Positions 22,867 to 26,202 of a stretch of DNA of 43,712 nucleotides are shown one piece after another. The notes below the pieces were generated by a model. The model did not search any database, was not told where the DNA came from, and was given only the letters and a program-made list of their open reading frames with translations. Made by a program: the position numbers and the translations under genes. Source of the DNA: Gammaproteobacteria bacterium (GTDB taxonomy: Bacteria > Pseudomonadota > Gammaproteobacteria > UBA9214). The DNA is taken from the NCBI GenBank assembly GCA_029860045.1, contig JAOUBY010000010.1, positions 1 through 43,712 on the forward strand. The letters are read 5' to 3'. Each line of letters opens with the position of its first letter. Position 1 is the first letter of the stretch.

Positions 22867-23436
22867 ATGCCGATCAAGCAGATAAATCAGTTTGTTAGCA
22901 CGGTTTTCGTGGACAGCCTGCTAGGCAGCGACCCTGCACCACTGTCCGGCTGGTATGCCGTACCGATGGCGTTGGAACAGGCCGACCGGTTGTGCCAGGC
23001 GGCGCAGCAGGCCATCCAGGCACGGCTGCGTGCCGGTGCATCCTGTTTTCAGCAGCGCCTGCTGGCGCTGATTTGTTGTGACGTGTCACCGGCAGTCACC
23101 CGGTCCCGCTACAACGAACTGGTGCAAACGGCCACGAACACGCGTGAGCGTGCCCTGCTGGAGCTGGTGTACGGGCAATGGCTGGCAAGCCGCAAGCTGA
23201 TGCCGGCCATGCGGCACCTGGAGGACGGTTTCCGGATGGCGTCCCCGTTACTGGCAAGTGAGGATTACTTCCGGCTGTTGCGCCGTCATGAGCGCCTCGC
23301 CTGCCTGGTCTTTACTGCACAGGCGTCCAGTGCGCAGGATTTGCCGGAGCTGCTGACCGAGGCGGCGGTAACAGAATGCCTGCAAGGGCGGGTGCGCCGC
23401 TCCACTGCACGCAATCACCAGGATACGCTGGGGTGA
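22867..23436 (+). CDS. Hypothetical protein
   Basis: 189-aa ORF with RBS spacing to the downstream transporter; no family recognised. Confidence 0.75.
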   Translation: MPIKQINQFVSTVFVDSLLGSDPAPLSGWYAVPMALEQADRLCQAAQQAIQARLRAGASCFQQRLLALICCDVSPAVTRSRYNELVQTATNTRERALLELVYGQWLASRKLMPAMRHLEDGFRMASPLLASEDYFRLLRRHERLACLVFTAQASSAQDLPELLTEAAVTECLQGRVRRSTARNHQDTLG

Positions 23437-23443
23437 GCATGTC

Positions 23444-24382
23444 ATGTCACTGCTGATCGCGGGTTGTCGCCTGGTTGCCAACCAGCTGGCGCCGATCACC
23501 CTGCTGGGTGCCGTCGCGGCCTACCTGTACCCGCCGTTGTTCATGGTGTTCAAGAGCAGTTTCCTGTGGTTCTTTGCCGCCACCATGTTTGCCATGGGCG
23601 TCGTGCTTGACGCCAGGGAGCTGCGCAACACGCTGCGTAAACCTGCTCGCATCGGGCTGGGTGTGATGACACAGTTTACCGTGATGCCGCTGCTGGGTTT
23701 CATTGCGGCCCTGCTGGCGCCGTTGCCGGAAACCATCAAGCTGGGCTTTATCATTGTGGCCTGCGCGCCCGGTGCCATGGCCAGTAACGTGATGGTGTAC
23801 CTGGCCGGTGGTGCGGTGGCGTTCTCCGTGGCGATGACCACGGTTGCCACGTTCCTGTCGCCGTTGCTGACGCCGTTGCTGGTGGAGTGGCTGGGCGGTG
23901 TATTCCTGGAGATCCCGTTCTGGCCGATGATGCAGACCATCATCCTGACCGTGGTGTTACCACTGTGGCTGGGCATGTGGCTGAGCCGTTTCCTCAGTAA
24001 CCGTCTTGAGCTTGCACGCATTATCTCGCCGGCGGTGGCGGCTATCGCCATTGTCATCATTTGCAGCTACGCGGTTGCTGCCAACCAGGAACGCATTGCG
24101 GTGGTCGGTGGCTGGGTAATTCTGATGGTGATTCTGCTCAATGCGCTGGGTTATGCCGCTGGCTGGTGGCTGGCGCGGTTATACGGTTTTGATGCCAACC
24201 ACCGTCTGACGCTGGCGATTGAGATCGGCATGCAGAATGCAGGGCTGGGTGTAGCGCTGGCCCTCAAGCACTTCGCCCCGGAGGCGGCGCTGCCCGGCGC
24301 CCTGTTTGCTTTCTGGTGCATCCTGACCGCGGCCGGTGCCAGTTCCTGGCTGCGCCGCCGGCACGATATTCTCGCAACATAA
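23444..24382 (+). CDS. Bile acid:sodium symporter (BASS) family transporter
   Basis: 312 aa, multiple TM helices; MFAMGVVLDARELR, IVACAPGAMASNVMVYLAGG, IEIGMQNAGLGVAL. Confidence 0.92.
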   Translation: MSLLIAGCRLVANQLAPITLLGAVAAYLYPPLFMVFKSSFLWFFAATMFAMGVVLDARELRNTLRKPARIGLGVMTQFTVMPLLGFIAALLAPLPETIKLGFIIVACAPGAMASNVMVYLAGGAVAFSVAMTTVATFLSPLLTPLLVEWLGGVFLEIPFWPMMQTIILTVVLPLWLGMWLSRFLSNRLELARIISPAVAAIAIVIICSYAVAANQERIAVVGGWVILMVILLNALGYAAGWWLARLYGFDANHRLTLAIEIGMQNAGLGVALALKHFAPEAALPGALFAFWCILTAAGASSWLRRRHDILAT

Positions 24383-24452: not shown

Positions 24453-24479
24453 TAAAGCTTTCCCTTCTCCCGCCGATAG
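24453..24479 (+). promoter_or_regulatory. Sigma-28 (FliA)-type promoter
   Basis: TAAAGCTT-tcccttctccc (11 nt)-GCCGATAG vs consensus TAAAGTTT-N11-GCCGATAA: 14/16 with exact spacing. Confidence 0.8.
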
Positions 24480-24485
24480 CCATTA

Positions 24486-24630
24486 CAAGAGCGTCATAGA
24501 ACAGCGCTTTGTGAAACAGGTCTGGCACGCCGGATCCATTTCAGAAAGGGTTTTTTCATTGCACTGTGCACGTAAGGCTCCTCCGACGCTGAAAAGCGTT
24601 TTCCAACCCGCCGAAAGGCGGGTTTTTTTT
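24486..24630 (+). ncRNA. Candidate sigma-28-dependent small RNA (about 140-145 nt)
   Basis: Starts about 7 nt after the sigma-28 -10 element, ends at the intrinsic terminator; contains a long symmetric stem-loop (24507-24548), anti-SD-like GGCTCCTCC (24576-24584) and a GAAA-tetraloop hairpin (24586-24599). TSS is predicted, not observed. Confidence 0.65.
24605..24630 (+). terminator. Rho-independent terminator
   Basis: AACCCGCC-GAAA-GGCGGGTT followed by a T run (8 T in total from 24623). Confidence 0.95.
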
Positions 24631-24654
24631 GCCTTTCTGATGGTGTTTTTATTT

Positions 24655-24682
24655 GCGGCAGGAGCGCCTTGCAGGCGCGATT
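24655..24682. repeat. Single REP-like arm
   Basis: gcggcaggagcgccttgcaggcgcgatt; same core as 18019-18090 and 18674-18740. Confidence 0.8.
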
Positions 24683-24707
24683 GAAACTCACGCAGCGTCG
24701 CGAATTA

Positions 24708-26202
<1,495 letters not shown>

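Follow-up and report, generated by a model that had tools for sequence, protein, structure and literature searches.

Several small RNAs under the control of sigma-28 (FliA) have been described. In Escherichia coli, the sigma-28-dependent small RNAs MotR, FliX, FlgO, and UhpU are described as derived from untranslated regions (UTRs) (PMC10578931). In thermophilic Campylobacter, the sigma-28-dependent non-coding RNAs CjNC1 and CjNC4 are predicted to pair with the 5' UTRs of mRNAs, their predicted targets lying among sigma-54-dependent flagellar genes (PMC4626219); CJnc170/FlmR is FliA-dependent, and CJnc230/FlmE, with the motif CCUU, is processed from the flgE mRNA (PMC11187230). The FliA regulon of Bdellovibrio is reported to reach beyond flagella and to include small RNAs listed with FliA promoters (PMC3627812). 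Here we analyzed a locus located between a BASS-type transporter gene and hemF on a 43,712-nucleotide contig (JAOUBY010000010.1, the whole of which is called the window below) from a gammaproteobacterial metagenome-assembled genome (MAG; G000), in which a first-pass annotation had proposed a standalone sigma-28-controlled small RNA. The co-conservation of promoter, terminator, and core and the presence of fliA support this proposal. We give a probability of about 0.8 to the reading that the locus is a standalone gene for a trans-acting small RNA approximately 144 nt long, which would be transcribed by sigma-28, end at its own terminator, and mask Shine-Dalgarno sites by means of the motif CUCCUCC. 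The locus very probably represents a real, undescribed family of sigma-28-driven small RNAs.

The two boxes, TAAAGCTT-N11-GCCGATAG, are present on the + strand at 24453-24479 with the exact spacing announced and two mismatches to the sigma-28 consensus TAAAGTTT-N11-GCCGATAA. The claim that such a site is rare by chance holds in the window, where it is the sole match at three mismatches or fewer and shuffled sequences gave a mean of 0.06 matches, but not in the whole 2.4 Mb MAG, where 21 matches were found at this threshold vs. 16 with a reversed control pattern (four sites have two mismatches). Since matches at this level are unremarkable throughout the MAG, the single-genome statistic is weak and one genome does not settle the promoter, the case for which therefore rests on conservation.

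When 57 genomes were searched at the DNA level, the conserved core was found in 16 other genomes of the window's family, where the strongest conserved block consists of CTCCTCCGACGCTGAAAAGCGTTTT and the terminator. The block CTCCTCCGACGC-GAAA-GCGTTTT plus terminator is common to 55 distinct relatives, and 36 stretches were obtained in a pattern scan of named genomes, including those of Thiohalobacter thiocyanaticus Hrh1 (L067) and Thiogranum MAGs. With a covariance model, matches at E < 1e-7 were found in 24 of 370 genomes sampled from the class, distributed over 11 families and usually present once per genome; within the order, 17 of the 23 genomes gave a match, including all eight near-complete ones. 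Judged from these sequences, the RNA family is much wider than the initial observation suggested.

Upstream of the core, TAAAG-N14-GCCGNTA or a close variant occurs in 52 of the 55 distinct members, and the third and fourth positions of the -10 box (C and G) are invariant in all 52. The mean pairwise identity amounts to 0.89 and 0.75 in the two boxes vs. 0.33 in the spacer, 0.28 in the upstream flank, and 0.34 downstream. Promoter and hairpin are thus conserved together in the relatives: both boxes and the terminator are kept around a conserved core, whereas the flanks and the sequence in between have diverged. A strict version of the sigma-28 pattern was matched by 42 of 56 members and by 25 of 1608 control windows (1.6%). 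Of 13 flagellin genes in related genomes, 12 are preceded by the same boxes, approximately 100-120 nt before the start codon, and the GCCGCTA and ACCGCTA variants are therefore normal for FliA in these lineages. The first promoter scan, based on the full TAAAGTTT/GCCGATAA consensus, had underrated the GCCGCTA/ACCGTTA variants until the flagellin promoters were compared.

The terminator was found where it had been claimed, about 125 nt downstream of the boxes, and the length estimated here falls within the 140-145 nt proposed. The fold of the predicted RNA beats 198 of 200 shuffles (z -2.9). The core hairpin and the terminator comprise 14 pairs; in an alignment that was fitted to the model, and hence biased towards structure, 97.5% of the cells are paired and 69 double changes are spread over nine pairs, with both-side changes in six of the eight terminator pairs, values that none of 500 shuffles reached and for which slid controls gave 38-52%. 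The terminator also changes in step in an unfitted alignment. As regards the claim that no credible open reading frame (ORF) follows the promoter, start codons do exist inside the predicted RNA, one of them opening a 57-codon ORF at 24511-24684; no reading frame is conserved across 16 relatives, which rules out a conserved micro-protein. The locus therefore combines its own promoter boxes, its own terminator, and the lack of a conserved ORF, as expected of bacterial trans-acting small RNAs, and as far as the sequence goes it also has the features of a sigma-28 regulon member, namely FliA boxes at the correct spacing in a genome encoding FliA. The coordinates of these features and of the adjacent genes are given in Table 1.

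Table 1. Positions in the window of the predicted small RNA, its elements, and the adjacent genes.
Feature	Position	Strand	Remarks
Sigma-28 -35 box TAAAG	24453..24457	+	TMAAG here in nearly all of 52 members; identity 0.89
Sigma-28 -10 box GCCGATAG	24472..24479	+	14 nt past TAAAG; identity 0.75
Predicted small RNA, ~144 nt	24487..24630	+	Start inferred ~7 nt past the -10 box; 3' end set by the terminator
CUCCUCC, candidate anti-Shine-Dalgarno seed	24578..24584	+	Invariant in alignment A1; predicted mostly unpaired
Short hairpin GACGCU-GAAA-AGCGUU	24585..24600	+	Compensatory changes across 52 sequences
Intrinsic terminator AACCCGCC-GAAA-GGCGGGTT and T tract	24605..24630	+	8-pair stem, GAAA loop
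BASS-type transporter gene	23444..24382	+	Upstream neighbor, outside the RNA; function as named in the first-pass annotation
hemF	24708..25724	-	Downstream convergent neighbor; ORF extent, true start probably further in

The RNA would be transcribed by the sigma-28 RNA polymerase when FliA is active. Since CUCCUCC is predicted to be largely unpaired (mean unpaired probability 0.62 vs. 0.39 for the whole RNA in 52 members), we infer that it may act by anti-Shine-Dalgarno pairing: by pairing with mRNAs at Shine-Dalgarno sites of the GGAGGAG type, the motif would lower their translation. The short hairpin and the terminator may contribute stability and probably the binding of Hfq, which is encoded in G013, a genome belonging to the same family as the window. 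Several observations weigh against this picture of a sigma-28-driven pairing RNA. CUCCUCC is predicted to be paired in a few members (L076, L100), and the energy-ranked targets in G013 form no coherent set; the top-ranked ones include a glnA-like ORF and a secreted-protein ORF (both named by eye), and GGAGGA occurs as a Shine-Dalgarno background in the tested stretch of 65 of 2247 genes. As to the promoter, L046, L051, and L099 showed no clear sigma-28 site in the member promoter scan, and L017 retains the RNA core with no good promoter.

An RNA that is real and sigma-28-driven might instead titrate a protein or another small RNA, without masking any ribosome-binding site. The incoherent target prediction would be in line with this, as would the fact that the core hairpin is conserved as strongly as CUCCUCC and the presence in some relatives of a long conserved 5' domain, which would be unusual for a simple pairing RNA. 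However, CUCCUCC is invariant, mostly unpaired, and exactly complementary to the Shine-Dalgarno sequence, and the conserved element does not consist of GGA motifs, as would be typical of CsrA sponges, so that we regard titration as rather unlikely.

The position of the locus bears on another explanation, which the first-pass annotation had itself raised: the interval might simply be the end of the BASS transcript (3' UTR and terminator), from which a small RNA might be processed. Between the BASS stop codon and the sigma-28 boxes no terminator-like site was detected, and read-through could therefore include the interval. On the other hand, the RNA is kept in L002, L007, and L008, where BASS was not found adjacent, as well as in L015 and L049, where the upstream neighbor is hemB directed away from the RNA, which therefore needs its own promoter there; moreover, the conserved promoter boxes sit between BASS and the RNA core. 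Since the RNA is retained even next to an upstream gene of opposite direction, it can hardly be the 3' UTR of the BASS gene, an explanation we consider highly improbable. A reading in which the boxes match by chance and the terminator alone is meaningful is extremely improbable, in spite of the common occurrence of sites with up to three mismatches in the MAG (21 vs. 16), in view of the fixed spacing of two conserved boxes within diverged sequence, the 1.6% control rate of the strict pattern, and the matching flagellin promoters.

The RNA, on the + strand, converges with hemF on the - strand, as had been stated, and hemF is the conserved neighbor in most relatives. The locus is syntenic even in distant families, where it lies between hemB/ORF189/BASS and hemF/tsaC/topA. 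ORF189, a 189-aa ORF located at 22867-23436 in the window, is found together with hemB and the RNA in different families, at low identities of 28-57%.

The sigma factor on which the standalone sigma-28-transcribed RNA would depend is encoded in the window's genome (G000:C89:11798-12526, L145; 262 bits). Of 42 genomes, 39 have a FliA score above the curated cut-off, and in the class sample FliA is encoded by all 24 genomes with a strong match to the RNA vs. 216 of the 370 genomes overall. Flagellin and FlhA were not found in G000 (91% complete), G003, G004 (98% complete, near-complete), or G013 (one contig, near-complete), nor in G014, G018, and G020, which belong to the window's family; FliA was found in G000, G003, G004, G013, G014, and G020, and not in G018. 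In the same family, G005 and G008 carry both flagellin and FlhA, and G016 carries FlhA. The presence of fliA with neither flagellin nor FlhA detected is the case in most of the family. The description of the element as a flagellar-regulon small RNA is therefore upheld as regards the sigma-28 promoter and fliA, but the label "flagellar regulon" is doubtful for the window's host, in which neither flagellin nor FlhA was detected. In G000 and G013 (L147), fliA adjoins a fleN-like ATPase gene (that of G000 named from its sequence by eye), and no flagellar genes were seen by eye on the G000 fliA contig. A short FlgM-like ORF lies approximately 6 kb from fliA in G001, G003, G005, and G015. In G014 (L017/L085), the core and terminator are retained and the sigma-28 boxes are unrecognizable, yet fliA is present.

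In the sequence of G013 up to its last 0.2 Mb, sigma-28-like sites, defined in both G013 and G000 as matches to the consensus, precede genes encoding a pilG-like response regulator, a response regulator-GGDEF protein, and a PAS-GGDEF-EAL protein, as well as a PilB-type ATPase, a GspH-type protein, and a phosphonate-binding protein. The counterparts in G000 are the sites before the genes of the pilG-like response regulator and the response regulator-GGDEF protein. Sites of this kind located before pilus, twitching, and cyclic di-GMP genes are L193, L222, L238, L250, L192, and L256 in G013, and L103, L121, and L116 in G000.

A second promoter motif is present outside the window's family: the sigma-54 motif TGGCAY-N5-HYGC was identified in 32 of 39 members vs. 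24 of 1608 control stretches. Its distance upstream of the sigma-28 box is mostly 46-49 or 57-60 nt, which makes two classes separated by about one helical turn; these values were obtained by subtracting printed distances, and L054 and L057 deviate. The motif was observed at the two preferred distances in L041, L067, L082, L088, L124, and L069-L080. It was found in no member of the window's family, where the sigma-28 box stands alone, and this family has probably lost it. Many other relatives have a longer RNA (~255-285 nt) carrying a conserved 5' domain, GTGGTGTGCAGATCCGC...CGGAACTCCTGAAGC, for which no convincing Rfam match was found in the carriers scanned. The long form, with the 5' domain upstream of the core, was noted in L041, L044, L045, L067, L082, L088, L092, L049, L050, and L052. 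The MAG of Thiogranum sp. MASpbin.12 contains two copies of the RNA (L080, L099), possibly due to contamination: a short one with sigma-28 boxes and a long-type one whose boxes are degenerate.

According to the main reading, the RNA would serve, in the window's family, a sigma-28 regulon from which flagella are mostly missing. Tentatively, and with the odds somewhat against it, we further propose that the RNA is ancient, that it had sigma-54 and sigma-28 promoters stacked in front of it and originally timed the flagellar program, and that it has outlived the flagellum, sigma-28 and the RNA being devoted in this family to surface behavior (type IV pilus control and cyclic di-GMP). With stacked promoters of this kind, RNA control would act at two tiers of the polar flagellar cascade, and the persistence of the RNA and fliA in genomes without detectable flagella provides a way of asking what the role of sigma-28 is after the loss of flagella. 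The named strain Thiohalobacter thiocyanaticus Hrh1 may make the RNA testable in culture.

The first-pass annotation had called the RNA undescribed, and indeed no match was found in the window with Rfam at the gathering cut-offs, nor was any description of this RNA family found in the open-access literature. The relatives scanned resemble RF02837 (anti-hemB) and RF02278 (Betaproteobacteria toxic small RNA) in having a CUCC-rich stretch, a hairpin, a spacer, and a terminator, with sub-threshold matches (at most 28.5 bits vs. a gathering cut-off of 49.5, and at best 30.1 bits vs. 50, respectively). Unlike the present RNA, RF02837 proper has a CCCGC/GCGGG hairpin with CCUCCCU in its loop, and the RF02837 search gave separate loci in the same genomes (G000:C29 and G016:C4:132144). 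Homology to either family is unsupported, anti-hemB being a separate family at other loci. RNAs resembling RF02837, in which the hairpin is CCCGCU-UCCUCCCUGA-GCGGG, were observed at G000:C29:78330-78430 and L288-L317, some of them as tandem copies; at E up to 0.01, about half of the genomes of the class have such matches, most of which stay below the curated cut-off.

As regards the systems described in other bacteria, the likeness to CjNC1 and CjNC4 is that of sigma-28-dependent non-coding RNAs, and no homology is claimed. FlmE has a comparable plan, in which a putative anti-Shine-Dalgarno motif lies in a stretch flanked by two stem-loops (PMC11187230), but it derives from the flgE mRNA and its motif is CCUU instead of CUCCUCC. 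With MotR, FliX, FlgO, and UhpU, the present RNA would share sigma-28 control, Hfq being encoded in its relative G013; unlike these UTR-derived RNAs, to which the Rfam search revealed no sequence relation, it appears as a separate gene located between non-flagellar genes, and would thus extend the regulon of the flagellar sigma factor by a small RNA that is encoded independently and broadly conserved.
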